Shown here one piece after another: positions 1,505 through 17,194 of a stretch of DNA of 64,000 nt. The notes under the pieces are model-generated. The model was given only the letters and a program-made list of their open reading frames with translations, was not told where the DNA came from and searched no databases. The translations under genes and the position numbers were made by a program. The DNA is from Pseudomonadota bacterium (GTDB lineage: Bacteria; Desulfobacterota; Desulfovibrionia; Desulfovibrionales; Desulfomicrobiaceae), in NCBI GenBank assembly GCA_018902545.1, contig JAHIQM010000006.1, forward strand, positions 1-64,000, given 5' to 3'. Every line of letters starts with the position of its first letter. Within the stretch, counting starts at the first letter, position 1.

Positions 1505-1709
1505 AAAATCATTCCTCGACATATAAATAATTAAATTATTACTCAGAGTCTTATGCATTTACATATAATGTTGCAAAGCAAGGATGTTTTAAATATTTTT
1601 GTTTGACATGAACAGAATAGACCAAAGTTTAGACTAGCAAATGCACGAAAAAGCATCCTCATTGAGGACGTTTTTATATGGGAAATTAATAATGGAAATA
1701 TCAATTTAG

Positions 1710-1731: not shown

Positions 1732-1791
1732 TGTGAAATTTTATTTATTTAGAGTTTTGATTGATAATATATTATTGTTGCTCTGTCAGTA

Positions 1792-2079
1792 TCAATGCCT
1801 CGTAAATCGAATCGGTGGACTCGCTTGATCTCTTCCTGGTTCCATCTCGGGAGCTGTGCGCACCCTCCAAGCATGCTCGTTTGCCCATGCTTCAAGTGCA
1901 GGCTCATCAATTCGCGGGTAGTCAAATGTTGAAATGTGTGGTGAACGGGATGGGAACGCAAGTGCTACGTTTCTGTAATGTGTCACCAAGTCGTTTCCGC
2001 CGTGTTCCATAAGGCTCTTTTCGAGTTCGGCCCGCCACCTAGGAGCGTCTTGCTCCCATTTGTCGTACTTATTGTGCAT
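1792..2079 (-). CDS. Small hypothetical protein, last gene of the RM operon, possible C-terminal frameshift
   Basis: This 95-residue frame starts at 2079 with AGAGA upstream, 11 bp after the stop of the preceding gene. The N-terminal two thirds look coding (KWEQDAPRWRAELEKSL). The last 18 residues in this frame are low in character, whereas an overlapping frame ending at 1749 gives a more protein-like tail (NQEEIKRVHRFDLRGIDTD). The true product may continue to 1749 after a one-base shift near 1845-1860. No family was recognised. Position at the end of the operon suggests an accessory role to the RM system. Confidence 0.45.
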   Translation of the reverse strand: MHNKYDKWEQDAPRWRAELEKSLMEHGGNDLVTHYRNVALAFPSRSPHISTFDYPRIDEPALEAWANEHAWRVRTAPEMEPGRDQASPPIRFTRH

Positions 2080-2090
2080 GTTGATCTCTG

Positions 2091-2690
2091 CTAATTTTCG
2101 TCAAAATTATCGAAGTTATAAACCAATGTGTGTTCATGGTCCCAAAAAAGCCTGTCTATGGTAAAAGGCTCTCCGATAATAAATAGTCGTGGGTTTGGGC
2201 TGAGTTTTCCCATTTTAGCTTCTTCTCGGTAAAAAAAGACAAGCAATACATAAAGTGCTGCGATAGCATTTAAGGCGTTCTTTAAATTACCATCTGAAAA
2301 ATGTTCATGTCGTTCATGTTTCACATTGTTGTATGCTCGCCACCAAAGAGGTTGATGTGCGCCGCCCCAAATTATCCAGGGTTCCAGCGTAAGGCCAAAT
2401 CGCGGCATGTATACCTTGACTGAGTGAAAATATGGGTGTTGTTTTGTGATTATATCCTTGTAATGGGTAATGTTTTGTGCTCGGCGTTGAGGATTAATAG
2501 ATGTACAATACTGTTTTGCCACAACGTCAATCTCCGAGGCAGCTGCAAATAGCATTTTGCTAAGTTCTGTAGAGTAGCATTCAAAGTTTGCTGTAGTGAG
2601 CTCTATAAAACGTGCGAGATTCGCGACATCTTCTTCCAGAGCTAGGAAGTAGTTCCAATGAATCGTTGTTGGAGCCTCGTGAATGGTCAT
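2091..2690 (-). CDS. Hypothetical protein with a HEPN-like KH-R motif, RM-associated
   Basis: The start at 2690 (MTIHEAPTT) is chosen because AAAGGGA lies just upstream; an earlier start at 2717 has no such site. The protein is about 199 residues, mostly helical. It carries WWRAYNNVKHERHEHF at about residues 126-141, reminiscent of the conserved Asn/Lys-His-x-Arg helix seen in HEPN-like RNase or Abi-type domains. That resemblance is by eye only. It sits 55 bp downstream of the specificity subunit gene and may be an accessory or abortive-infection component of that operon. Confidence 0.55.
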   Translation of the reverse strand: MTIHEAPTTIHWNYFLALEEDVANLARFIELTTANFECYSTELSKMLFAAASEIDVVAKQYCTSINPQRRAQNITHYKDIITKQHPYFHSVKVYMPRFGLTLEPWIIWGGAHQPLWWRAYNNVKHERHEHFSDGNLKNALNAIAALYVLLVFFYREEAKMGKLSPNPRLFIIGEPFTIDRLFWDHEHTLVYNFDNFDEN

Positions 2691-2744
2691 TTTGTTCCCT
2701 TTAGGCGTAATAATCACAAGTTTGGTCTGCGTTGAGAGAGAAAT

Positions 2745-4250
2745 TCAAAGGCAAACTTGATCAATGCTATTTCTAGACTGCTGTCGCTCGTTGATCGTTC
2801 TTTTAATCTGCCCAGACAAACTTGCAAGCGCGCTTTGCTCCAACCGCCAAGCTGCGTCGCGTAGTCCGTTCGCTTCCAAAACCAACTTGCCAATAGCGTT
2901 AAGACCAGCTTCAGGCAGTATGGGCACAAGAACTGCTCCGATCATTTCTCGGTCAAGATGTGTTATTACTGACCCATATTGTTGCCTACGCAACAGAATC
3001 TGGCCGAAATCACTCGAAAGCCAGCAGTAAATGAAACCTGCCAGAACATCTGTCGCCCCATGCACTCGAATAGCATCTTGACTAGCCGCCCAGCCGTCCA
3101 TGTATTTTGGTATGATCTGTACCCGTCCGTTCGTGCCTGAACAGGTCGCCATGACATAGTTCGTTTTAAGCGCAATTTCGGCCATATCTTTCGTGTGTGC
3201 GCCCCGTGCAAGCCCTTTGAGCCCGATGGGTGCAACTTGAAAGAGTTGTTTGCTTGAAAGAAGTGGTATGCCGCCATTTTCAACATACACGCGCTTGCGG
3301 AATTTGGTCACGGCGTTGATGGCCCGAGTCAGAGTTTTGTCGGCAAGCGGCAGGACCTGGTGTTTGCAGGCGTCGAGATGCTGCAAAACCCATTGGGATT
3401 GGGGGCAATGGTAGCTGGCGTCCAGCCGTCTGTCCCAATGTGACGCCCGGATTTTGCCAATAACCGGTCCGCTGCCTTGCTTGGGTAAAGTCGGAAAGCC
3501 AAGATAATTCCGAAGCAGGGCGTCGGCCTCGTCGAGTTTGTCATTGGCCGCGTCACGCTTCATGGCCGCGTCCACAAAGGCGCGGCCTATGGCAATTTTT
3601 TGTATCGCGGGCAGACTCGGGATGACAACGGCTGTAAGATGAATCGGCTCGATGTGTTGGACGACCGAACCGTAGGTGAGGCCCTGAAGTTGTGCTCTAC
3701 CCCAGAATGATCGAAGAAAAGCCGCCACATAACCGGCCGTATCGCGATCCAGGGCTGTGATACGAATAGCGTCTTGAGACAAGGCCCATTCAGCCATTCG
3801 CGGGGAGGCCAAGCTGATGTTTCCTATGGTGCCAGAGCAGGACACAAGAACGGACCAAGGCTTGATGCGAAGATCTTCAAGCTTCTTGGTGTGTTTGTTA
3901 CTAAGATAACGGCCTCTTTCAGGCCGTAGCCCAATGATATCCGAGCTTGAGAGAAAGGGGACGCCATGGTCACTATTCACAAAAATTCGTGCGAAACGGA
4001 ATGCATTGTGCGCATCTTGGCATAAACCGCCATCGCCCAAGAGCGGTATTAACTGGTGAGATGAGGCCGAAAGCTCGGCCACAGCTCGTTTTGCTTCCAA
4101 AGCATAGGCCGAAGCCTCAAGCCGCAGGCTAGAACCGACGACTTCAGAAAGTTTGACCCCCACACTGCGAGACCCTAGGTGTCCACTGTGGCCATGCGTG
4201 CCGATTGGATGCGCTACATCTACCATCCCAGCACCGCCGTTTTTTTCCAT
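2745..4250 (-). CDS. Specificity (S) subunit of a Type I/IIB-like restriction-modification system
   Basis: This 501-residue protein has the two-repeat layout of HsdS. Two target-recognition halves each carry a conserved block: GVPFLSSSDIIGLRPERG with CSGTIGNISLASP at about residues 96-165, and GGIPLLSSKQLFQVAP with CSGTNGRVQIIP at about 345-415. Both are followed by SQDAIR. It would direct the methyltransferase to a bipartite DNA site. The ATG at 4250 overlaps the end of the methyltransferase gene by 31 bp; an ATG at 4226 overlapping its TAG by 7 bp is an alternative start. Confidence 0.85.
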   Translation of the reverse strand: MEKNGGAGMVDVAHPIGTHGHSGHLGSRSVGVKLSEVVGSSLRLEASAYALEAKRAVAELSASSHQLIPLLGDGGLCQDAHNAFRFARIFVNSDHGVPFLSSSDIIGLRPERGRYLSNKHTKKLEDLRIKPWSVLVSCSGTIGNISLASPRMAEWALSQDAIRITALDRDTAGYVAAFLRSFWGRAQLQGLTYGSVVQHIEPIHLTAVVIPSLPAIQKIAIGRAFVDAAMKRDAANDKLDEADALLRNYLGFPTLPKQGSGPVIGKIRASHWDRRLDASYHCPQSQWVLQHLDACKHQVLPLADKTLTRAINAVTKFRKRVYVENGGIPLLSSKQLFQVAPIGLKGLARGAHTKDMAEIALKTNYVMATCSGTNGRVQIIPKYMDGWAASQDAIRVHGATDVLAGFIYCWLSSDFGQILLRRQQYGSVITHLDREMIGAVLVPILPEAGLNAIGKLVLEANGLRDAAWRLEQSALASLSGQIKRTINERQQSRNSIDQVCL

Positions 4251-6223
4251 TCAAGGAATTCCTGGGCCACGATGGGCGTGTCGTCATCCACCCGTTTTAC
4301 AGGCTGAAGAACGCGTCGGCTGGGCTCGCCGTGGGCGTCGAACTCAAATAGCTCTGTTTCCTCGCCCTCGGTGGGAAAAAGGATCTCTTCACCTTCTTCG
4401 TTTCTGCGGTAAAGCGTATTGCCTCGTTTGTCGTGACCGATAGACTGTGTCTGCGCCATGAAAATTTCATAGTCATAGAGCTGCCCCTGGCGTTCTTCCT
4501 TGAGCATTTCTTCTTCGGTCTTTTTTTGCAGCAGAAGAACAGACGTTTGGGTGCCATTGTTGGGCTGAAAGGTGTCCGGGTGAAGGTCCACGCTGGCCAC
4601 AATTCGGCAGTGAACCATCAGCCAGTAGCGAACATATTCCAGATCTGGATTGCCCAGTATGCCGTCGGGAAGGACGATGGCCATCCGGCCTCCTGGTTTC
4701 AGCAACTGCCAGCAACGCTCAATGAACAGAATTTCGGGGGGACGGCTTCCAAAGAGATCATCGGTCATGCGCCAGCGCCCACCTTGTTTTTTCCAGACAT
4801 GCGCCAGCTTGAACTGGGACAAGGTCTCTCGGTCGGAAATGGGCAGTTTGCCACCAAACGGGGGGTTTGTGGCGATAACGTCGAAATGGCCGATTTCTTC
4901 AGGACCCCGCAACATACTGGGTGATAGGTCCAGGGGCTTGGCGAGCTTTTCCCGGAATTCAGATTCCCATTGGTGCGGGTGCAAAAGGCTGTCGGCTTGA
5001 AGGATGTTCCCGGAGCCGTCATTGTTCATGACCATGTTCATCTTGGTGGCTTTGACCAACTCTCGGTTGATGTCGAACCCGAAGAAGCAACGGCTCGCGA
5101 TATCCCGAATCTTTTCATTAATGATCTGGCGGAGCCCTTCGCTGGTCGTATTGTTGGCCATTGATTTTTTGAGACTTGCAATGACCTCATTCATGGCGAT
5201 GACCAGGAAGCCACCTGTGCCACATGATGGGTCCAGAATTCGTTCGCCAGGTTTTACGCTCAACATTCGGATGGCCATGCGTTGGACATTTCGCGGGGTG
5301 AAAAATTCGCCTCGGTCCCCGCGTAGGTTGCTCCCCACCAGTTCCTCGTAAGCCTTGCCCTTGACATCGATGTGGGTGTCCAGAAAGCTGTAACGCTGGG
5401 TTTCGCCGACGATGTAAGCCAGGGAGCGCGGCTTGAGCGTGATGAGGTCGTTGGCGGCGAAAATAGCAGGGTAGCGTTTTTTCACTTCCTCGAAAATCTT
5501 TCCAATACGCTTTTGAACGGTCAGTCGCCCGTCATTGCTGGCTTTTTCCTTGGCGGTGGCAAAGAATTCAAGGGGGTTCGGGATGTTCCGCTCATCGTGG
5601 ATTTTGCAGAAGATAACCTTGAGTAGCTCAAAAAAGGCTTTGTCCTTGGGCAGGCCATCCGTGATGTAGATGTGATCGTGACAGGTACGGAATGAAAAGA
5701 GGAGATTGTCGTCCGTCGAACGCATCAGCCTGTCGCGGGTTGGTCGATCCGTGTCGTCGATATTGCCGTCGTGGGCGGGAATGTCATTGGGCTCTTCCCA
5801 TAGGACACGCCCTTCGGCCTCGACGCGGCGAAAAACGGACTTGTGTCGTCCGTTGGTCCACATGCCCCACTGGGCGTTAGGACATGAAGACAGGTAGGAT
5901 TTGAGCTGACCTTCGCCGTCCTTCTTGTCGGATGGCTTCACCTTTTCGCTTTTACACTCGATGATGATGTCGATGGATTCTTGAAGATGCTGGGCGTTTT
6001 CAGGAAAAATGGCGATATCGACCCGCTTTGTCGCAGATCCGACCTTGATGGGAAACTCCACAGCAATCCGTTCGGGCTTGTAGCCAAGTTCTTTTACAAG
6101 ACGGCGTTCAATGTTCTGTCGCACATATTCTTCCGGCGTGTCATTGCGAATAATCCCGTCAATGAAATCGCAGAGCTTTCCGTCGGGAATCGTGGTGATG
6201 AGTTGCTGATTTTGCGATGCCAT
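4220..6223 (-). CDS. Fused restriction nuclease-adenine methyltransferase (HsdR_N + HsdM)
   Basis: This is a protein of about 667 residues; a GTG at 6232 would add three. Numbering from that GTG, residues 1-150 are an HsdR N-terminal type nuclease domain with a PD-(D/E)XK signature, D72 and E92-C-K94 (RVDIAIF then IIIECKSE). Residues 290-600 are a gamma-class N6-adenine methyltransferase with motif I DPSCGTGGF (334-342) and motif IV NPPF (456-459). Nuclease plus methylase in one chain with a separate two-TRD S subunit is the BcgI-like Type IIB arrangement. No separate hsdR or helicase gene is present. It is the first gene of a four-gene minus-strand operon. Confidence 0.85.
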   Translation of the reverse strand: MASQNQQLITTIPDGKLCDFIDGIIRNDTPEEYVRQNIERRLVKELGYKPERIAVEFPIKVGSATKRVDIAIFPENAQHLQESIDIIIECKSEKVKPSDKKDGEGQLKSYLSSCPNAQWGMWTNGRHKSVFRRVEAEGRVLWEEPNDIPAHDGNIDDTDRPTRDRLMRSTDDNLLFSFRTCHDHIYITDGLPKDKAFFELLKVIFCKIHDERNIPNPLEFFATAKEKASNDGRLTVQKRIGKIFEEVKKRYPAIFAANDLITLKPRSLAYIVGETQRYSFLDTHIDVKGKAYEELVGSNLRGDRGEFFTPRNVQRMAIRMLSVKPGERILDPSCGTGGFLVIAMNEVIASLKKSMANNTTSEGLRQIINEKIRDIASRCFFGFDINRELVKATKMNMVMNNDGSGNILQADSLLHPHQWESEFREKLAKPLDLSPSMLRGPEEIGHFDVIATNPPFGGKLPISDRETLSQFKLAHVWKKQGGRWRMTDDLFGSRPPEILFIERCWQLLKPGGRMAIVLPDGILGNPDLEYVRYWLMVHCRIVASVDLHPDTFQPNNGTQTSVLLLQKKTEEEMLKEERQGQLYDYEIFMAQTQSIGHDKRGNTLYRRNEEGEEILFPTEGEETELFEFDAHGEPSRRVLQPVKRVDDDTPIVAQEFLEWKKTAVLGW

Positions 6224-6238
6224 TCTTTTCACTAACTG

Positions 6239-6267: not shown

Positions 6268-6549
6268 TTTATTCGGATTAGTGCAACAATTCATTTATGT
6301 AAGTATATATGCGCAATTTTCTCATGGTACTAATACGTATTTTTTTACATACAAGCTACTTCATATGTATTGTGCTATGAGATTTCATACGTATATATTT
6401 CTAGTTAAATGTGGAGTTGTTTTTTCGTTTCTGGGGCTATACTGAAATCCTCAAAATTAATTTCCTGTTTCAGCCCATAGTCTTATGGAACGTGGGCGCA
6501 AAAACTGTGGTTCTCGTGGCCTGCCTGACTGTTGAAAAATTCAAAATTC

Positions 6550-6674
6550 GCAGGCCGTTCAAAAATGGCGAGATGCGAGGAAGCGGAAAAAGCCAGGACG
6601 CGCAGTGTATTGCGCAGATGCGCGGTCTGGCTTTTTTCGCTGACGAAGCAGATCGCCATTTTTCAACGGCCTGC
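6550..6674. repeat. Long imperfect palindrome, MITE/REP-like
   Basis: About 125 bp fold back on themselves. GCAGGCCGTT at the left matches AACGGCCTGC at the right, with further matching blocks inside (AAAAATGGCGA with TCGCCATTTTT, GGAAAAAGCCAG with CTGGCTTTTTTCG) around a centre near 6608. It lies directly before the ribosome-binding site of the nucleotidyltransferase gene. The size and symmetry suit a non-autonomous mobile or REP-like element; no other full copy was seen in this window. Confidence 0.6.
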
Positions 6675-6691
6675 AGGGAGGTGGCGCGACG

Positions 6692-7514
6692 ATGGAGCGG
6701 AAAGGCAATCAATCGGTCGAGAGCCGCATTCGCGGCGAACTGCGACGTCTTGAACTGGTCGGACGTTACCGTGCTCTATGCCTGTGAATCAGGCAGCCGC
6801 GCATGGGGTTTTGAATCGGTGGACAGCGATTACGACGTGCGGTTCATCTACGTCAGGAAAACGCCCTGGTATCTGAGCGTTCAGCGCAAGCGCGATGTCA
6901 TCGAAAAGCCCATTGACGACGAGCTTGACATTTCCGGGTGGGACGTGACCAAGGCCCTGCAGCTTCTGCGCAGATCGAATCCGCCGCTGCTCGAATGGTT
7001 GCAATCTCCCGTGGTCTATGTCCGTAAATCCTCTTTCGCCGAGCGGATGAGAAGACTGATGGGCGAGTATTATTCCCCCATCTCATGCATGTATCACTAC
7101 CTGCACATGGCGAAGAACAATTACAGACGGTACCTGCGGGAAGAAATTGTCTGGACGAAGAAATACTTCTATGTGCTTCGTCCCATACTTGCGTGCATTT
7201 GGATCGAGAGAGGCTTCGGCGTGGTTCCCATGGAATTTGCAAAATTGGTGGAGCGCGTAGTGGAAAGCGACGAGCTTCGCCGGGAGATTGACGAGCTTCT
7301 GATCATGAAGCGTGCCGGCGCAGAGCTGCGTCGAGGGCCGCTCAATCCCGTGCTTTCGGGATTCATCGAGCAGGAACTTGTGCGTTTGAACGGCCGGCTG
7401 CAACCGCCGTCCAGAAGCAAGGATCACGCTCCGCTGGACCGGCTGTTTGTGGAAACGTTGAGAGAGGTGAACGGGGAAGGCATCGGGCCATGCGTTCAGG
7501 TGGACGACTCCTGA
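6692..7514 (+). pseudogene. RlaP/YcgL-like nucleotidyltransferase with an apparent frameshift near its N-terminus
   Basis: The body of about 250 residues (to 7514) matches the PF10127-type polymerase-beta-fold nucleotidyltransferases, with ACESGSRAWGFESVDSDYDV carrying the GS motif and catalytic Asp-x-Asp. A strong AGGGAGG site precedes the ATG at 6692. That frame reads MERKGNQSVESRIRGELRRLE, like the expected N-terminal helix, but then runs to a stop at about 6787. The catalytic part lies in another frame, so a one-base shift around 6750-6765 is needed. A TTG at about 6751 in the main frame is an alternative start with no ribosome site. Members of this family are linked to RNA repair and defence islands. 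Confidence 0.65.
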
Positions 7515-9275: not shown

Positions 9276-10640
9276 ATGGTGATCAGCAAAACAATGATGC
9301 AGTTTGATACAAAGAGTAGCTTAGATATAGAAAAGTCTGTAGCTCAATTTTCATTATATTCAGATCAAGTTCAAGATTTACTTTTGAGAATATGTAACGG
9401 AGAGAGTAATATTTTTCCGGAAGGCTTGATTTCTAGCACAATAAACGGAAACGCAGCTGCAGCTCTTAGAAGACTTGTGCCGATTCAAATTAGGAAAAAA
9501 TTAGGTTTATTTTTTACAGATACTTATTTGTCTGACAACGTAGCAAAAATATTAGCGCCTTATCTTCGGAAGAATTCTAAAATATTAGACCCCGCATGTG
9601 GCTCAGGAAATTTGCTTTTATCTTGTGCTAAGCACTTAGAGATCGGGAAAAATCTAAATCATACCCTAAGTATTTGGTCAGATAAAATCATAGGATATGA
9701 TTTATATGATGAGTTTATTCGTGCGGCAAAATTAAGACTTATAGCACTCGCAATAAGCTATCATTTAGATGAAATCGAAGAAATTAATTATTTAAATATA
9801 GATTGTTTATTTAACAAATTGAAAACGTGTAATTTTTTTTCACAATTAAATTTTAATGAAATTGACTGTATTGTAGTGAACCCACCTTTTGGTCAAGAAT
9901 TTGCTCCTGATGGTTGCGTCTGGGGTTCTGGTATGGTGCAGATGGCAGCTTTGTTTTTTGAAAAGTTGATACGTATTGCACATAAAGATATGCGAATTGT
10001 TGCAATACTTCCAGATGTGCTACGAAGTGGAACGAGGTACAAAAAATGGCGTTCCATGATATCCTCATCTTGCAGTTCTATAGAAATAAGTGCGGGTGGG
10101 CGATTCGACAAAACCACGGATGTTGATGTATTTGTCCTTCATGCTGTACTTGGTAGGCCAATCGAAATATTCTCTGAATGGAATTTTTCACAGAGTAGAG
10201 ACAATTCAAGCCAACAAGTGGTTAACGATTATTTTAATGTTCGTGTTGGGACTGTTGTCCCGCATCGAGACCCGCTTGTCGGACCAGTATATCCATATAT
10301 ATATGCCCGATCAGCCCCATCTGGGAAAATACTTTGCCACATAGGTGAATTTCGTCCATTTTCAGGAACTGTATTTCGACCGCCTTTTGTTGTTTTGCAT
10401 CGAACATCAAGCCCGCATGATAGATCTAGATGTATCGCAACAATTGTAAATTTAGATCAAGAAGTCGCTGTTGAAAATCATTTGATTGTTTTTACTCCGC
10501 ATGATAGTTCTATTGATAGTTGCAAAAAATTATTAGATATTTTGCAGTCAAAACAGTCGTCTGAATGGTTGAATAGTCGGATTCGCTGTCGTCATTTGAC
10601 AGTGTCGTCATTGCGAGAGCTTCCGTGGTTTGACGTTTAG
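9276..10640 (+). CDS. N6-adenine DNA methyltransferase, first gene of an AT-rich candidate defence operon
   Basis: This 454-residue protein has GLFFTD (77-82), like the FxTP motif before the SAM site, motif I DPACGSGN (105-112) and motif IV NPPF (202-205), so a gamma-type amino-methyltransferase. The C-terminal third (about 280-450) probably recognises DNA, as there is no S subunit gene. A start at 9294 is possible; neither start has a strong ribosome site. It is followed after 33 bp by a DUF262 gene and then a RelA/SpoT-like gene on the same strand. GC is far below the core, so it was probably acquired. Confidence 0.85.
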   Translation: MVISKTMMQFDTKSSLDIEKSVAQFSLYSDQVQDLLLRICNGESNIFPEGLISSTINGNAAAALRRLVPIQIRKKLGLFFTDTYLSDNVAKILAPYLRKNSKILDPACGSGNLLLSCAKHLEIGKNLNHTLSIWSDKIIGYDLYDEFIRAAKLRLIALAISYHLDEIEEINYLNIDCLFNKLKTCNFFSQLNFNEIDCIVVNPPFGQEFAPDGCVWGSGMVQMAALFFEKLIRIAHKDMRIVAILPDVLRSGTRYKKWRSMISSSCSSIEISAGGRFDKTTDVDVFVLHAVLGRPIEIFSEWNFSQSRDNSSQQVVNDYFNVRVGTVVPHRDPLVGPVYPYIYARSAPSGKILCHIGEFRPFSGTVFRPPFVVLHRTSSPHDRSRCIATIVNLDQEVAVENHLIVFTPHDSSIDSCKKLLDILQSKQSSEWLNSRIRCRHLTVSSLRELPWFDV

Positions 10641-10673
10641 TAAATAATGGTAATCTAACATAATGGAAAGCAA

Positions 10674-11759
10674 ATGAAAGCAACAATTATTGATAGACGT
10701 CCGTCAACTCAAGATATTAGTTGGTTTTTGGATCTCTATAGAGTCGGTCAGTTAGATTTAAATCCAAGCTATCAACGACGCAGTGTGTGGAGCCTTAAAG
10801 ATAGAAGATACTTCCTGGACACAATATTTAGAGGCTACCCTAGTCCAGCTATTTATCTACACAAGGAAACAAGAAGTGGTGGTAAAACAATATACGCAGT
10901 CGTTGATGGGAAGCAACGACTTGAGACAATAATTCAATTTGCAGAAAACAAGATAAGTGTTGATGCTGAATTTGGTGACTCTCGACTTGATGGAAAAAAA
11001 TGGAAAAAAATTTCTGAAGAATTAGATTTGGCACGAAATTTTTGGGATTACGTAATGCCTGTTGAGTTTATTAGCGTTGGAGATAGTGGAACGCTTTTGA
11101 ATGAAGTATTTGATCGTCTGAACAGAAATTCACGAAAATTAGTTGAGCAAGAGCTTAGGCATGCCAGGTATAATGGATGGTTTATAGACTTTGTTGAAAA
11201 CGAATCAAAGAGTCAAGATTGGGTCGATCTTGGTATTGTCACGACTGCAAGAGCTAGGAGGATGCGTGACGTTCAGTTTCTTTCAGAGTTACTTATAATA
11301 TTGTTAAAGAATGATGTCGGTGGGTTTGATCAAAATGAAATTGATGAATTTTGCGCCAATTATGAAGAACCTTGCGAAACGATTCCGATGTTCGACGAAG
11401 AAGAGCTTAAGCACCGATGGACAAGCGCCAAAAGGTATCTTTTGGAGTTAGAAAAAAATAATAACGCAATCTCGACTTACTCAAAAGACTTTATAAATTT
11501 TTATACGTTGTGGTCATTGGTCGTAACAACGATTACAAATCTGCCTACTTCTTCGATTTTCTCTATTAAATACGCAGAATTTATGTGTGATGTCGCAAAA
11601 TTTAAAGATAAAACTTATCTTGAAAAAGTTATGAATAAAGAAGAAGCTCCTCAATTTTCTCAAAGTCTTAAGTATTTTCAAAATAGTATTGGAGCAAGTA
11701 CAGAGTTTCCTCAAAGAAAAGAGCGTTTAGCAGCAATTTTTTCCGTAATTTACGGATAA
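10674..11759 (+). CDS. DUF262 (GmrSD/ParB-like fold) protein
   Basis: This 361-residue protein has the DUF262 signature in the N-terminal half: NPSYQRRSVWS (30-40) and VVDGKQRLETI (76-86), the DGxQR motif that binds and hydrolyses nucleotide or DNA in GmrS, BrxU and SspE-type restriction proteins. No HNH/DUF1524 nuclease motif is visible in the C-terminal half, which is helical. It lies between the methyltransferase and the RelA/SpoT-like gene (33 bp and 11 bp gaps), strongly suggesting one transcript. Inference: the effector or NTP-sensing part of a modification-linked defence system. Confidence 0.85.
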   Translation: MKATIIDRRPSTQDISWFLDLYRVGQLDLNPSYQRRSVWSLKDRRYFLDTIFRGYPSPAIYLHKETRSGGKTIYAVVDGKQRLETIIQFAENKISVDAEFGDSRLDGKKWKKISEELDLARNFWDYVMPVEFISVGDSGTLLNEVFDRLNRNSRKLVEQELRHARYNGWFIDFVENESKSQDWVDLGIVTTARARRMRDVQFLSELLIILLKNDVGGFDQNEIDEFCANYEEPCETIPMFDEEELKHRWTSAKRYLLELEKNNNAISTYSKDFINFYTLWSLVVTTITNLPTSSIFSIKYAEFMCDVAKFKDKTYLEKVMNKEEAPQFSQSLKYFQNSIGASTEFPQRKERLAAIFSVIYG

Positions 11760-11770
11760 TTGTTTAGGTT

Positions 11771-12745
11771 ATGAAAATTTCAAAATCTGTTAGAGAAATA
11801 TATTTGAATATGGAAAATACATATTTAAAATTAAAAGAGCAAGTCGATCGAACTATAATGAATTTAAAAAATCCGAAATGGCATTATGAAAGCCGTATAA
11901 AATCAGTTGAAAGTTTTGCTTTGAAAGTAGAAAGTGGTCGATATATCAGTCAAGAAGAAATTGACGACTTATTTGCATGTACTATTGTTGTAGATAACTT
12001 GGGTTCGATGTCAAAAGCCGAGGCCATGATCAAAGATTTGTTTGTTGTACGCGAGAGGCGACCGCCAAGTGACGACTTTACGACCAAGCCTTCAGACTGC
12101 TTTCGATTTGACGACACGCGTCTCTATGTTTTCTGGAAGGATGATTCGACTGTTCGGCCTACTGGGTTCGCAAAAGCACTATTTGAAATTCAAATAAAAA
12201 CATTCTTGGGTCACGCTTGGGCTGTAGCGACGCATGACTTGACTTATAAAACTGACGAAAAAAGTTGGTCAAAAGAGCGCATTGCTTACCAAATAAAGGC
12301 GATGCTAGAGCATGCGGAAGTATCGATTCAAGCAGCTACAATACTTTCAAGCACTGTAAATTTAAAAAAGACTAACGAGACATCAAGTCGCATATCAAGT
12401 CTTATCAATCTTTTATTAGAGTTATGGCCAGGATCAGCTCTTCCCAATGATAAAAAACGTTTAGCTGAAAATATTGATAACCTCCTTAAAAATATCAATC
12501 TTAGTCAAGAAGAACTCCGACAAATTTTAGAAAAAGAAACATTCATTGGAAAAGGGGTTAATACATTAAATATTTCTCCTTATGGTACAATTGTTCAGTC
12601 GATAATAAATCAGAATCCTGAAATAATAATTCAATATCTTAAAAAAAAGAGTAAAAAATTTAAAATATTCATTCCAGACGAGATTGTCATTCCTGGGTAT
12701 GAAGATGTAACAATTTTTAATAATGCAGTACGTTTAAAAAATTAG
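11771..12745 (+). CDS. RelA/SpoT-fold nucleotidyltransferase-like protein, divergent
   Basis: This 324-residue protein has recognisable pieces of the (p)ppGpp synthetase fold: SRIKSVESFALK (41-52, the R-x-K-S ATP loop), DDLFACTIVV (65-74), FEIQIKTFLGHAWAVATHDL (138-157, the E-x-Q-I-R/K-T helix with catalytic Glu) and LTYK. The Gly-Tyr segment that stacks the acceptor nucleotide is not evident (KPSDCFRF instead), and the usual Arg of DxxGxR is Thr. It may therefore use another substrate, as do toxSAS or CapRel-type toxins, or be only a binding domain. Residues 200-324 form a helical C-terminal part of unknown role. Confidence 0.75.
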   Translation: MKISKSVREIYLNMENTYLKLKEQVDRTIMNLKNPKWHYESRIKSVESFALKVESGRYISQEEIDDLFACTIVVDNLGSMSKAEAMIKDLFVVRERRPPSDDFTTKPSDCFRFDDTRLYVFWKDDSTVRPTGFAKALFEIQIKTFLGHAWAVATHDLTYKTDEKSWSKERIAYQIKAMLEHAEVSIQAATILSSTVNLKKTNETSSRISSLINLLLELWPGSALPNDKKRLAENIDNLLKNINLSQEELRQILEKETFIGKGVNTLNISPYGTIVQSIINQNPEIIIQYLKKKSKKFKIFIPDEIVIPGYEDVTIFNNAVRLKN

Positions 12746-12823: not shown

Positions 12824-14263
12824 TCAAACAAGATTAAGGGATTTCCATAGACCTGCGTGAATTACCATTTGATGATTACGATTGAAAGAAGCGCTTCTCT
12901 TACGATGTTGCCACGCATATCTGTCAGAATCTTGCCCAGTTTTCCAGGCATTGCCAATCCATGACGTCCGAAACATCTCCTTTGCTATTGACTCAACTTC
13001 GGTCTCACTCTTTGCAAATTGCTTTTGAATCTTTGTACTGAATTCGGTAAACGAAAAATCGCGTCCTAATTCTGTTAAAATTCCAGGTAATTCTGCTCTC
13101 ACTTGCTCATCAACTAGGCCAACCAGTGCGTCACTCAACTCCTGTTGAAACCAGTCTGAGTAGTTGTTGAGTGCTGAAAGAACATCATTGGTATTGAATG
13201 GTGGGGACTTTTTAAAACGCTGAAGTTCACGGAAAAAACTAATTAAATCTCGTGGTAGATATCTTGTATTATCTAACACAAATCCAACAGAGTCTCTTTT
13301 ATGAATTTGTTTTGGAAACCATGCTGCCCATAATTGAGGGGCAGATCTCACTTCGCCTGCCAGTGAGGCTCGCTTCTCTAAAATTCTAAATAAACTTGTA
13401 TGCAATGGTGACCTTGAATTATCGTACCATTTAAGGCTAATTCCATTATCGTTTATTCGTTTAGTCAAATTAGGGTCTGGGACCAACATCAATATTTCAT
13501 CTCTCACAAGAATTATTACTTTAGCATTTATTTTTCTTTCAATGAAAAAATTATTTAACAGACGTGAGGCATTGATAAGGTCGGCAATATATCCTGCATT
13601 ACTGCGTCCATTTCTTATTGGATGATCAAGTCCATCAATTACTAGATAATACTTTGATTCTGCTCCATTTATTCTGCTCAAAACACTTTTTATTGATTCT
13701 ACTACAGCAGCTGGATTCTTGACTTTAAACTGTTCCTCATCAACCTTTTCCCCGGACAGCTCGGTCATTACAGATTTGATATTGGAGAAAATTCCTCGTC
13801 TACTGGTGTACTGAACTATACTGATGAGACTATCTGATGATGCGAGGCCGTATTTCTTGAGAGAGGTGTGAAAATCTATCAGTTCTCGATTGCTATCGCG
13901 GACAGATTCATCACTCAAAAATAACGGGACCAAGCGGATGGCTAGCAACATTTGCCATACTGTGATTGCTCCACCGATACTTACACCCTTCTCAGCCCCA
14001 GTTTTTTCAAGCAAATTGAATTCAAATTGCTCAAGTTCATCAGCAGATACGAAAAGATTCCACTTAGTTTTAGAGCAAAGTTGCAGCTTTGATGAAAGTG
14101 CGCTTTTACCAGCGCCTTTTGGACCAATCACCAAAAATTTTTCTGGTAATTCTATTTCTTCTAAGATATTATCGATATCTACAAATGCATTTTCAATTAA
14201 CTCTGGAGCATGTAATTTTTCTTCTTGTGCATCTGTATATCTAAAATTAATTTTATTAAACAA
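12824..14263 (-). CDS. P-loop ATPase of the Sll1717-like family
   Basis: This 479-residue protein carries Walker A GPKGAGKS (47-54) and a Walker B-like YYLVIDGLDH with the STAND/AAA look (a DGLDH after four hydrophobics). The rest is helical. It starts with TTG at 14263, supported by AGAGGAA about 8 nt upstream. It converges on the methyltransferase-DUF262-RelA/SpoT operon, 78 bp between stops. Such ATPases are common in defence islands, often with a role as sensor or motor; no fused effector domain was seen. AT-rich like the facing operon. Confidence 0.7.
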   Translation of the reverse strand: MFNKINFRYTDAQEEKLHAPELIENAFVDIDNILEEIELPEKFLVIGPKGAGKSALSSKLQLCSKTKWNLFVSADELEQFEFNLLEKTGAEKGVSIGGAITVWQMLLAIRLVPLFLSDESVRDSNRELIDFHTSLKKYGLASSDSLISIVQYTSRRGIFSNIKSVMTELSGEKVDEEQFKVKNPAAVVESIKSVLSRINGAESKYYLVIDGLDHPIRNGRSNAGYIADLINASRLLNNFFIERKINAKVIILVRDEILMLVPDPNLTKRINDNGISLKWYDNSRSPLHTSLFRILEKRASLAGEVRSAPQLWAAWFPKQIHKRDSVGFVLDNTRYLPRDLISFFRELQRFKKSPPFNTNDVLSALNNYSDWFQQELSDALVGLVDEQVRAELPGILTELGRDFSFTEFSTKIQKQFAKSETEVESIAKEMFRTSWIGNAWKTGQDSDRYAWQHRKRSASFNRNHQMVIHAGLWKSLNLV

Positions 14264-14713: not shown

Positions 14714-17194
14714 TTATTTTGGCGTCATGGCCTTCTTGGTTTTGGCTGTGGGCATGGCTGTGGCTGGGTCTTCGGGCCAGGGGTGTTTGGGGTAGCGGCC
14801 TCGCATTTCGGCGCGCACGAGGGGATAGGCGTTTTTCCAGAACGAGGGCAGGTCGCGGGTGACTTGCAGGGGGCGTCCGGCGGGGGAGAGCAGGTGCAGG
14901 ACCAGGGCGTGGCGTCCGTCTGCCAGGGTGGGGGTGGTGGCGGAACCGAACATTTCCTGCAATTTGACCGGCAGGACGGGGCCGGACTCGGGGCTGTAGT
15001 CGATTTTGCGTTTCGCCCCTGTCGGCACGGCCATGAATTCGGGTGCAAGGCGGTCAAGTTCGCGTAATTTTTCCCATCCCACCAGCGCCTTGAGCGCCTG
15101 CAACAGTGCTATTTTGTTGAGGTCCGTACCGGAGCGTGCGCCGGTTGCGAAGGGTCCCAGCCATTGAGTGACGCTTTCAAGGAGCGCCTGGTCGGACATG
15201 TCGGGCCAGGTTTTCTGATCGAGGCTGCGCAGGAACCGAACCCGGTCCCGCAGGTTGTGGCATTCGTCGGTCCAGGTCAGACGCGAGAGATCCTTTTGTC
15301 CGTGCAGCAAGGCGCGGGTCATGGTTTCCGGGTCGGCGGCCAGATTTTCTTCTTTTACGCAGAGCGCATCGAGCATGATTTTGCGCAGGCAGATGACGCG
15401 GTCTTTGACCGGGTCCAGGGAGACTTCCTCGACGGCGCGCAGCTGGTCTCCAAAATGTTTTTCCAATTCACCAGGCGAAACCGGGGCAGACTGCCAGATT
15501 TTTGCTCCGGCCGCGTCTCCGTCCAGATCGGCGATGGCCAGAAATTCATGCCCGGCCAGGGTGCTTGGCCCCGGCCAGACTGCTTTGCGGCCGCTGGTCA
15601 GGCGGTAGGAGCCATCCTCCTGGCGGCGGGCGATGCGGTCCGGGTAGGCCAGGGCGGTGAGGATTCCGGCGGCTTCGGGGTCGGGCTGTTCCAGACTGAC
15701 GGACGCGAGCCGAGCGATCTGTTCCATGCTGGCGCGCAGGGTGTCTTTGCGGGAAAGGGAATGGGGATGAATGCGGAGCGTATCGCGCAGATCCGAGGAG
15801 CCGCGCATGCTCCGGCCCGGCTCACCCAGGATTGCGGCCAGATAGGCGGCGGTGGGGGCGAGGCCGTATTTTCTGGCCGTGAGCACCATGTGTCCCAGGC
15901 GCGGATGCAGGGGCAGAAGCGCCAATTCACGGCCGTGGGGGGTAATGCGTCCCTTGTCGTCCACGGCATTGAGGCTTTGCAGCAGATGCAGCGCGCTTTT
16001 GTAATGTCCGGCCGGGGGCGGTGTGAGCCAGGACAGGGTGTCCGGATTGACCGCGCCCCACAGGGCCAGGTCAAGCACCAACGGAGCCAGGTCGGCTTCG
16101 AGCATCTCCGGGGCGGGGAAGGATTTGCGGCTGACTTCGTCGGCCTGGTCCCAGATCCGGAAGCAGACGCCGGGCCCGGTGCGTCCGGCCCGGCCCCGGC
16201 GCTGGGTCACGGTGGCCATGGCGGCCGGTTCGGTGATCAGCACCGTCATGGAACTTTTGGGGTCGAAGCGCGGTAGCCGGGAGAGTCCGCTGTCGATGAC
16301 GATGCGAACGCCTTCGATGGTCAGGGATGTCTCGGCGATGGCCGTGGCCAGGACGATCTTGCGCGTGCCGGGAGCGGGCGGGGCGATGGCCTTGTCCTGC
16401 TCGGTGGCGGTCAGGGCCCCAAGCAGGGGGTGAATTTCGACTCCGGCTCCGGGGTTTTCGAGCAGCTCCGCCGTGCGCCGGATTTCGCGGGCTCCGGGCA
16501 GAAAGGCCAGGATGCTGCCTTGCTCCGTGGCCAGGGCGTGGCGGATAGCGCGGGACATGCGCTCTTCCAGGAAGCGCCCGGACAAGCGCAGATAGCGGGT
16601 TTCCACTTCGTAAGGTTGGCCGGGGCATTCAATGATCCGGCACGGCGCGATCAGGTCGGCCACGGCACTTACGTCCAAAGTGGCGGACATGACCACTAGG
16701 CGCAGATCCGGGCGCAGCGCTGCGCGGACCTCAAGGCACAGGGCCAGGCCCAAGTCGGCCTGCAGGCTGCGTTCGTGGTATTCGTCAAAAATGACGCAGC
16801 CGTATCCCGAGAGTTCCGGATCGTGCTGCAGCATGCGGGTCAGGATGCCCTCGGTTACGACCTCTATCCTTGTGGCGCTTGAAACCCGGATGTCGAGACG
16901 GGTGCGGTAGCCCACGCGTTCTCCGGCCTTCTCGCCAAGCAGGCCCGCCATGTGCCGGGCAGCGGCCCGCGCGGCCAGACGCCGGGGTTCGAGCATGAGG
17001 ATCTTGTTCTTGCCCAGCCAAGGCGAGGCAAGCAATGCCAGGGGGATGCGCGTGGTCTTTCCGCTGCCGGGCGGTGCATGCACAAGACACGCGGTCCCCG
17101 TGGCCAGCGTGTCCGCGAGCTCGGTCAGGACGGCGTCAATGGGAAGCGGCGTCAAATCGGGCATGGGAGCCGGATCACGCCGGGATGCGGTCAT
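14714..17194 (-). CDS. hrpB: ATP-dependent helicase HrpB (DEAH/RHA family)
   Basis: At 826 residues this is the usual HrpB length. Walker A PPGSGKTTRIPLALL is near residue 41, the DExH box FDEYHERS near 137, SATLD near 170 and the motif VI stretch QRRGRAGRTGPG near 330. The C-terminal HrpB domain follows. The role in bacteria is unclear beyond nucleic-acid-stimulated ATPase activity. It is the last gene of a minus-strand cluster lpd-maf-pgpA-hrpB; the gap to pgpA is 3 bp, so it is co-transcribed. An internal start at 17164 is possible. It begins the core genome after the island. Confidence 0.92.
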   Translation of the reverse strand: MTASRRDPAPMPDLTPLPIDAVLTELADTLATGTACLVHAPPGSGKTTRIPLALLASPWLGKNKILMLEPRRLAARAAARHMAGLLGEKAGERVGYRTRLDIRVSSATRIEVVTEGILTRMLQHDPELSGYGCVIFDEYHERSLQADLGLALCLEVRAALRPDLRLVVMSATLDVSAVADLIAPCRIIECPGQPYEVETRYLRLSGRFLEERMSRAIRHALATEQGSILAFLPGAREIRRTAELLENPGAGVEIHPLLGALTATEQDKAIAPPAPGTRKIVLATAIAETSLTIEGVRIVIDSGLSRLPRFDPKSSMTVLITEPAAMATVTQRRGRAGRTGPGVCFRIWDQADEVSRKSFPAPEMLEADLAPLVLDLALWGAVNPDTLSWLTPPPAGHYKSALHLLQSLNAVDDKGRITPHGRELALLPLHPRLGHMVLTARKYGLAPTAAYLAAILGEPGRSMRGSSDLRDTLRIHPHSLSRKDTLRASMEQIARLASVSLEQPDPEAAGILTALAYPDRIARRQEDGSYRLTSGRKAVWPGPSTLAGHEFLAIADLDGDAAGAKIWQSAPVSPGELEKHFGDQLRAVEEVSLDPVKDRVICLRKIMLDALCVKEENLAADPETMTRALLHGQKDLSRLTWTDECHNLRDRVRFLRSLDQKTWPDMSDQALLESVTQWLGPFATGARSGTDLNKIALLQALKALVGWEKLRELDRLAPEFMAVPTGAKRKIDYSPESGPVLPVKLQEMFGSATTPTLADGRHALVLHLLSPAGRPLQVTRDLPSFWKNAYPLVRAEMRGRYPKHPWPEDPATAMPTAKTKKAMTPK

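Follow-up and report, generated by a model that had tools for sequence, protein, structure and literature searches.

A probable BcgI-like restriction-modification gene pair with a HEPN-like neighbour in a Desulfomicrobiaceae genome

The window, the whole stretch of 64,000 nucleotides that was analysed, encodes a fused nuclease-methyltransferase (RM) and a specificity subunit (S). Judged from its sequence, this pair is predicted to be a widespread type of BcgI-like defence enzyme that both cuts and marks DNA, and we put the probability that RM and S act as a stand-alone Type IIB-like restriction-modification enzyme at roughly 75%. The domain content, the intact catalytic residues in the register of BsaXI, the duplicated S and the conserved gene pair are all present. 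The features of the locus are listed in Table 1. The open reading frames that the first-pass annotation gave for RM, S and two small genes (2091-2690, or 2091-2717 from the upstream GTG, and 1792-2079) are where it placed them.

Table 1. Features of the RM-S locus and its surroundings
Feature	Position	Strand	Description
RM subunit	4220..6232	(-)	PD-(D/E)XK nuclease-N6-adenine methyltransferase fusion; HSDR_N_2 + gamma-class methyltransferase, NPPF 456-459; GTG start at 6232 gives 670 aa, alternative ATG at 6223 gives 667 aa
RM nuclease domain	5780..6136	(-)	HSDR_N_2, residues 33-151; catalytic candidates E59, D72, E92, K94
S (specificity) subunit	2745..4250	(-)	501 aa; halves homologous to each other; ORF overlap with the end of RM
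P0003	2091..2717	(-)	Small HEPN-like protein; 208 aa from GTG 2717, 199 aa from ATG 2690
Orphan ORF	1792..2079	(-)	95 aa; no relative found
Terminator-like hairpin and T run	1654..1670	(-)	Downstream of the 95-aa ORF; consensus match only

The RM and S genes

RM carries in one chain an N-terminal PD-(D/E)XK nuclease domain and a gamma-class methyltransferase with an NPPF/Y motif, as is expected of a Type IIB enzyme. Pfam assigns HSDR_N_2 with an E-value of 1.2e-24 and N6_Mtase, residues 288-583, with an E-value of 4.2e-31. The nuclease domain had been proposed from D72 and E92-C-K94 (numbering of the 670-aa version); these residues are found in the sequence and are conserved among the relatives of RM. 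All six key positions are intact in 79 of the 80 genome relatives (84 of 92 across all rows), which fits selection for catalysis.

The second component is a separate S with two target recognition halves. Within S, residues 43-235 and 275-467 form a tandem repeat of 32% identity (E 9e-30), and the halves of the S family align with each other with a probability of 100% in hhalign. S adjoins RM in 78 of the 80 genome relatives, the remaining two contigs ending before it, and the two open reading frames overlap in 77 of these 78. It also accompanies RM in all 13 viral RM loci. No neighbour family other than RM and S occurs in more than 15 loci. The RM family is cross-phylum and numbers 273 relatives from one scan. 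For the RM tree, 12 rows were dropped (L015, L017-L022, L024, L046, L073, L093 and L094) and 17 were added, with L017-L019 back in as MADS rows. No curated model specific to this RM-S family was found in the libraries searched, and profile searches pull toward MADS.

Comparison with Type IIB enzymes

The PDB relative that ranks first for RM is RM.BsaXI, which belongs to the Type IIB enzymes (E-value 3.7e-36). Residues D72, E92 and K94 align with D90, E105 and K107 of BsaXI, and alanine mutants of these three lost cleavage according to the accessible text of PMC11997821. The nuclease stretch itself aligns weakly with BsaXI, at 8.4 bits, and its assignment leans on Pfam and the motif register. 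E59 as the counterpart of BsaXI E73 is a guess, since E73 lies in an alignment insert. RM is 670 aa long here versus 916 in BsaXI, and homology between the two is confident for residues 182-580 only; BsaXI is the sequence compared, and BcgI is likened by description.

As described in the accessible parts of PMC4081073, PMC3874165 and PMC11997821, the BsaXI/BcgI group shares with the present pair an RM fusion of an N-terminal PD-(D/E)XK domain and an NPPF methyltransferase, a separate S with two recognition halves, and the lack of a helicase in the pair. The reading of a fused nuclease-methyltransferase plus a two-TRD S as a Type IIB architecture is supported, and the nuclease residues agree with the ones examined by mutation in BsaXI. 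Likewise, no hsdR was recognised by reading among the open reading frames of 1-22 kb, in agreement with the first-pass annotation. There is no ATP-dependent translocase within the RM-S pair or between its genes, and only RM and S recur widely in relatives. The window begins at a contig end, so genes past position 1 are out of view. A HrpB-like helicase, identified by reading, is encoded as a separate gene at 14714-17194.

In brief, we suggest that two RM chains would bind one S chain, and that each of the two recognition domains of S would read one half of a bipartite DNA sequence. The methyltransferase would mark one adenine per half-site on the host chromosome. At an unmarked site the N-terminal nuclease would cut on both sides at a fixed distance without a helicase, and the likely role of the pair would be phage defence.

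The nuclease activity of RM is predicted from sequence, and RM could instead be a modification-only or regulatory enzyme in which the PD-(D/E)XK domain is present and unused for cutting. MAD2 shows that nuclease decay is possible in the superfamily; the retention of all six key residues in nearly every genome relative makes this reading quite improbable here.

Comparison with MADS

The closest curated profiles of the pair, at near full length, are MAD2 (630 bits over residues 16-661) and MAD5 (311 bits) of MADS. The pair could accordingly be a MADS-type methylation module that was parted from its effector genes and whose nuclease domain does not cut, but both matches lie under the curated cut-offs of 720 and 400 bits, respectively. 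MAD2 reached 1013-1035 bits in all three real MADS loci, MAD5 reached 500-503 bits in the two tested and MAD7 644 bits in the one tested, and mad6 was found in the two tested. In the three real loci, MAD2 and MAD5 are separated by one or two genes and the nuclease motif is degenerate (E92 to I and K94 to R), whereas in the window RM and S overlap with no gene between them and the motif is intact. Of the five further proteins of the window that were scanned (P0003-P0007), P0007 alone had a MADS match, a weak one of methyltransferase type (38 bits versus the cut-off of 720; 54.8 bits in a second profile scan), in a window that ends at the contig end. Two stand-alone relatives of RM score 627 and 641 bits on the MAD2 model, so the RM of the window looks like a member of a sister family of MAD2. 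Cut-offs, nuclease motif and gene order led us to reject MADS as the identity of RM-S, and we regard a parted MADS module as very improbable.

The nuclease motif, intact in stand-alone members and lost by MAD2 in the three loci read, offers a simple discriminator between the two. The contrast is also a hint at how MADS may have arisen.

The small genes downstream of S

P0003 lies behind S on the same strand, at a distance of 27 nt if it starts at the GTG and of 54 nt if it starts at the ATG. It has no match in Pfam, PADLOC or NCBIfam and nothing convincing in the PDB by sequence. Its family (n=13) gave chance-level Pfam matches, each in one of the 13 members, including Abi_C with an E-value of 0.18. 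A relation of the 199-residue protein to HEPN had been proposed from a KHER stretch. This stretch is real and lies within the most conserved part of the family, and the predicted fold is HEPN-like: 16 of the best 20 structure matches are HEPN folds, with Z from 8.7 to 5.0, values that the alignment tool rates as no more than intermediate for helical proteins. Among the solved structures aligned, those of the HEPN superfamily (HepT, Csm6 and archaeal HEPN) resemble P0003 above the others. A Foldseek search returned nothing at E <= 0.001. Given the resemblance in predicted fold, the outcome that the first-pass annotation named as refuting its view, a lack of any relation to HEPN or Abi folds, did not occur.

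Unlike HEPN proteins, P0003 has the conserved motif W-W-x-x-[YN]-[NT]-x-x-K-[HY]-x-R, which is without the conserved R of R-x4-6-H. R127 is unconserved in alignments of 13 and 14 rows, and H134 is Y in three copies from the genus. P0003 as a canonical HEPN RNase was rejected on this ground. A test of genomic context likewise spoke against P0003 being a constant component of the system. The 95-aa ORF has no match in Pfam, PADLOC or NCBIfam, and further searches found no relative. Terminator-like sites in the region number 12 versus 6.8 expected from shuffles.

The first-pass annotation raised the possibility of a second effector, and P0003 could be an integral one, an RNase kept inactive by RM-S and freed when restriction fails. 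A restrained RNase of this sort is a published proposal for PrrC-like genes and further HEPN neighbours of RM genes. The gene follows S closely on its strand, the terminator-like site comes only beyond the next ORF, the predicted fold is HEPN-like, and HEPN-motif, DUF3644 or PIN-like genes occupy the same slot in 16 of 78 relatives' loci. Against this reading stand the unconserved R and the variable H134, the Foldseek result and the genomic context of the family. Of 28 loci that carry P0003 relatives, 26 lack any match to RM or S, and the genus copies adjoin genes read as nuo. Conversely, a P0003 relative is present in only one of 80 RM loci, at about 7 kb from RM, and P0003 is absent from the stretch examined around L025 and L026, the nearest relatives of RM. 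The GC content is 0.41 for P0003 versus 0.53 for RM and S. With the R missing and the family not tied to RM genes, a dedicated second effector at this locus is unsupported, and we consider it unlikely. Because its relatives mostly sit away from RM genes, P0003 is probably a passenger, that is, a separately acquired accessory gene rather than a required subunit.

The gene slot behind S

In the 16 loci mentioned above the toxin-like third gene, of HEPN-motif, DUF3644 or PIN-like type, is no more than 20 nt from S. On all four viral contigs found independently, RM-S is again followed by a HEPN-motif gene. In one family of third genes, cluster 5, the R and H of R-x4-6-H are invariant in nine of nine rows, which reach down to 24% identity and of which two look identical. 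The fold model of cluster 5 has a pLDDT of 83.2 (the other four models at most 66); its structure matches cover only a beta-rich insert, with no HEPN entry among the matches listed. The cluster 5 profile, run without a positive control, gave no matches in 395 genomes of the phylum of the window, and the plasmid version of the gene was not found in phages. The PIN assignment is based on the sub-threshold Pfam match of one member (E 0.007, 17.1 versus 32 bits). In viral contigs the PIN-like protein has one relative, L149, which does not neighbour RM-S among the genes listed.

Nine plasmid relatives of RM were checked for the slot, and in their annotation no HEPN or PIN gene stands behind S. Three of the nine are without a separate annotated S. 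A kinase gene is located directly behind S in two and further on in one; to our reading, these kinase-bearing relatives look like MADS.

The linkage of HEPN and RM genes in general is already published. The accessible text of PMC3710099 describes HEPN genes in or beside R-M operons, PrrC and others, for at least 16 HEPN clades, and the arrangement here, with an RNase-type gene next to R-M genes, is comparable. What differs here is that a Type IIB-like pair forms the R-M part and that, in relatives, several unrelated gene families fill the slot after S. We speculate, as a possible though doubtful reading, that the MADS-related RM-S family may be a DNA-sensing core and that an exchangeable effector behind S would be restrained or triggered by RM-S, P0003 being one recruit. 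The effector types in this reading are HEPN-motif, PIN-like, DUF3644, AbiGi and AAA-type genes, among others.

It is the gene slot behind S that draws most interest here. It provides a natural set of operons of RM plus an RNase-type gene, in which the backup design published for HEPN neighbours of RM genes may be probed.

Organization of the locus

The locus consists of four ORFs in succession on the minus strand, according to the ORF listing of the window. In brief, they encode a 670-aa nuclease-methyltransferase fusion (RM), a 501-aa specificity subunit (S), a 208-aa protein and a 95-aa protein. The third gene probably starts at ATG 2690 (199 aa), which is preceded by AAAGGGA as read from the sequence and lies 54 nt beyond the S stop. 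The 95-aa ORF had no match outside its own locus in Pfam, PADLOC, NCBIfam or the loci of relatives. Position 1 of the window is the contig start.

Features of the locus
Feature	Position	Strand	Remark
RM	6232-4220	minus	
S	4250-2745	minus	
208-aa ORF	2717-2091	minus	
95-aa ORF	2079-1792	minus	
Terminator-like hairpin	1670-1654		beyond the fourth (95-aa) ORF

Divergent from the RM gene, 6411-7514 (+) encodes an RlaP-family nucleotidyltransferase (E 2.3e-91). Three tightly spaced genes at 9276-12745 (+) encode an N6-adenine methyltransferase (454 aa), a GmrSD_N protein (361 aa) and a RelA_SpoT-domain protein (324 aa); their GC is 0.34-0.37 versus 0.60 for window 15-60 kb, and they look like a separate defence cassette. 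A 479-aa protein at 12824-14263 (-) gave sub-threshold AAA/ATPase matches alone in Pfam.

The RM and S proteins

RM residues 33-151 match Pfam HSDR_N_2 (E 1.2e-24) and residues 288-583 match N6_Mtase (E 4.2e-31). In a profile search S hits models of specificity subunits of both Type I and Type II; its residues 43-235 and 275-467 share 32% identity (E 9e-30), so that the halves are homologous, and hhalign of the halves at family level gave 100%. The top PDB match of RM by phmmer is RM.BsaXI (E 3.7e-36; main match 182-580). The nuclease region gave a weak additional stretch of 8.4 bits, within which D72, E92 and K94, counted along the alignment, correspond to BsaXI D90, E105 and K107. E59 may be the counterpart of BsaXI E73, at a place where the alignment has an insert. 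According to PMC11997821, alanine at E73, D90, E105 or K107 inactivates BsaXI cleavage, and the wider Type IIB family described there conserves all four residues. Another contig of the same genome carries a fragment of ~54 codons (G000:C18:7261-7422) that shares 65% identity with the beginning of the RM protein. Its reading frame is interrupted by stops, and it may be left over from a second RM copy.

One scan of GTDB species genomes gave 273 RM relatives. The best 80 of the 273 were analysed; they come from many phyla and share 54-85% identity across almost their full length. E35, E59, D72, E92, K94 and Q109 are all kept in 79 of these 80 genome loci, the exception (L046) being a shortened ORF, and in 84 of 92 aligned RM rows; the remaining seven exceptions are three proteins of the MADS methylation module, two rows with E59->Q alone and two incomplete rows. 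S stands beside RM in 78 of the 80 loci, on the same strand in 78/78. It is the immediate neighbour of RM in 77, and the two ORFs overlap in 77, the overlap being approximate as longest-ORF starts were used. In the two loci without S (L046 and L069) the contig ends at most ~430 bases from RM. S also adjoins RM in 13/13 viral loci. The commonest recurring neighbour family besides these two occurs in 15 loci; the single member read (in L054) is by our own reading a small helix-turn-helix protein. We therefore regard RM plus S as the unit.

The nearest curated profiles are those of MADS, MAD2 for RM (630 bits, cut-off 720) and MAD5 for S (311 bits, cut-off 400). Two stand-alone RM relatives score similarly against MAD2 (641 and 627 bits). 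Three loci from the phylum of the window are real MADS, with MAD2 at 1013-1035 bits in 3/3 and, among those tested, MAD5 at 500-503 bits in 2/2, MAD7 at 644 in 1/1 and mad6 in 2/2. Their nuclease motif is I-C-R in all three loci, whereas the window RM has E-C-K, and one or two genes separate MAD2 from S, whereas the window RM and S overlap. With both scores below cut-off and motif and gene order different, we rejected MADS as the identity of the pair. In a quick tree MADS falls on its own side with full support, but it served as the outgroup and is joined by long branches.

The 208-aa protein

Pfam, PADLOC and NCBIfam gave no name for the 208-aa protein, and Pfam gave none for its family. Its AlphaFold model (14 sequences) has pLDDT 84.9, and Foldseek with this model found no match at E <= 0.001. 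With VIA-align, HEPN, HepT or Csm6 entries make up 16 of the best 20 rows (Z 8.7 to 5.0, middling for helical proteins by the tool's own warning). Twelve of these labels come from the listing, and 7bxo is one that we take to be a HEPN-type entry. According to PMC3710099, 1wwp and 2q00 are HEPN; 2jpu is the same target as 2q00. The remaining four rows (1wty, 1ufb, 3mfn, 3c18) are listed without a HEPN name, and the first clearly unrelated fold is catenin (Z 5.0). The family shares the motif W-W-x-x-[YN]-[NT]-x-x-K-[HY]-x-R, from which some members deviate at the bracketed positions. In both family alignments K133 is invariant and R127 variable; H134 is invariant in 14/14 rows of one and Y in 3/13 of the other. 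The predicted fold is HEPN-like, and the active site, judged from these alignments, is changed from HEPN.

Relatives occur in three other genomes of the genus and as a second copy in the own genome (4/22 family genomes, own included), in six further genomes of the phylum (7/395, own included), on six plasmids and 13 viral contigs, and in one phage record. The genus copies (L105-L108; four genomes, own included) adjoin genes read as a nuo operon, and three have Y at the H134 place. By blastp over 3.8 to 18 kb per locus, 26 of 28 loci of relatives lack an RM or S match, L129 being counted although the relative itself was not relocated there. In L087, RM-S lies ~7 kb from the relative; in L164, a 1041-aa neighbour gave a weak RM/S match (62 bits). 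Upstream neighbours vary, e.g. BrnA antitoxin (L013) and a DUF4145 protein (L012). GC is 0.41 for the 208-aa gene versus 0.53 for RM and S. The 208-aa protein family is free-living.

The gene behind S in relatives

Among the 78 genome loci with S, five end at S; in 22 the following gene lies on the opposite strand, and a same-strand gene follows at >20 nt in 24 and at <=20 nt in 27. These are raw tallies from this slot alone, inflated by near-copies (L052 and L053 are 99% identical; L063 and L073 are alike), and may not exceed those of an ordinary defence-island neighbourhood. The 27 close genes, assigned from one to three scanned members per cluster, are eight PIN-like, seven of the HEPN-motif family cluster 5, two AAA_15/AAA_21, one each of DUF3644, T5orf172, carbon-nitrogen hydrolase and sub-threshold metallo-beta-lactamase, and six without family (the scan covered two of the six), some short ones maybe spurious ORFs. 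The DUF3644 gene is also PADLOC PDC-S19 (E 3e-147), and according to PMC3710099 a HEPN family overlaps DUF3644. One viral locus (L140) has AbiGi behind S (2.4e-38, gap 6). Nine plasmid RM relatives have no annotated HEPN or PIN gene there. Two loci carry a pair of unassigned genes behind S, alike by eye (L089 11455-13075, 344+198 aa; L142 6881-8525, 333+217 aa).

Cluster 5 (~260 aa) is the strongest case. Its R-x4-H is invariant in 9/9 rows, down to 24% identity. Cluster 5 has no Pfam or PADLOC name, fold searches with its model gave no HEPN match among the matches listed, and its profile had no match in 395 genomes of the phylum. An independent search found it directly behind RM and S on 4/4 viral contigs, of which L131 and L132 are apparently one sequence and L133 has the gene split into two ORFs; the RM of L131/L132 is just 30% identical to the window RM. 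A Klebsiella plasmid has the order RM-S-cluster 5. In 464 of 465 plasmid records the match covers <80% of the third gene; the single such record examined (NZ_CP103606.1, Klebsiella) has a 417-nt ORF at 97107-97523, with RM and S absent. There a DUF262 pair follows the partial gene, as in the full-length plasmid. RM, S and third gene are all present in 3/5426 complete E. coli genomes (99.8% identity), and two further records hold the last 10% of this stretch alone. Mapped on the quick tree, the label for cluster 5 takes five changes and that for PIN one.

Proposed function

HEPN genes beside R-M systems, with a proposed role as backup, are already published (PMC3710099). Among the matches listed, from open-access literature without most subscription journals, there was no report of an RM-S-HEPN operon of this kind. 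The RM-S pair belongs to an already known kind of system. How its observed, conserved parts work together we infer by analogy with BcgI and BsaXI (PMC4081073, PMC3874165 and PMC11997821): two RM chains and one S would form an (RM)2S complex. This complex would methylate one adenine per half of a bipartite site and would cut unmethylated DNA on both sides, at a fixed distance from the site. The closest relatives of the window RM among the best 80 of 273 come from Rhodocyclaceae (L025, 85%) and Pontibacterium (L026, 83%), which suggests that RM has been transferred between distant hosts.
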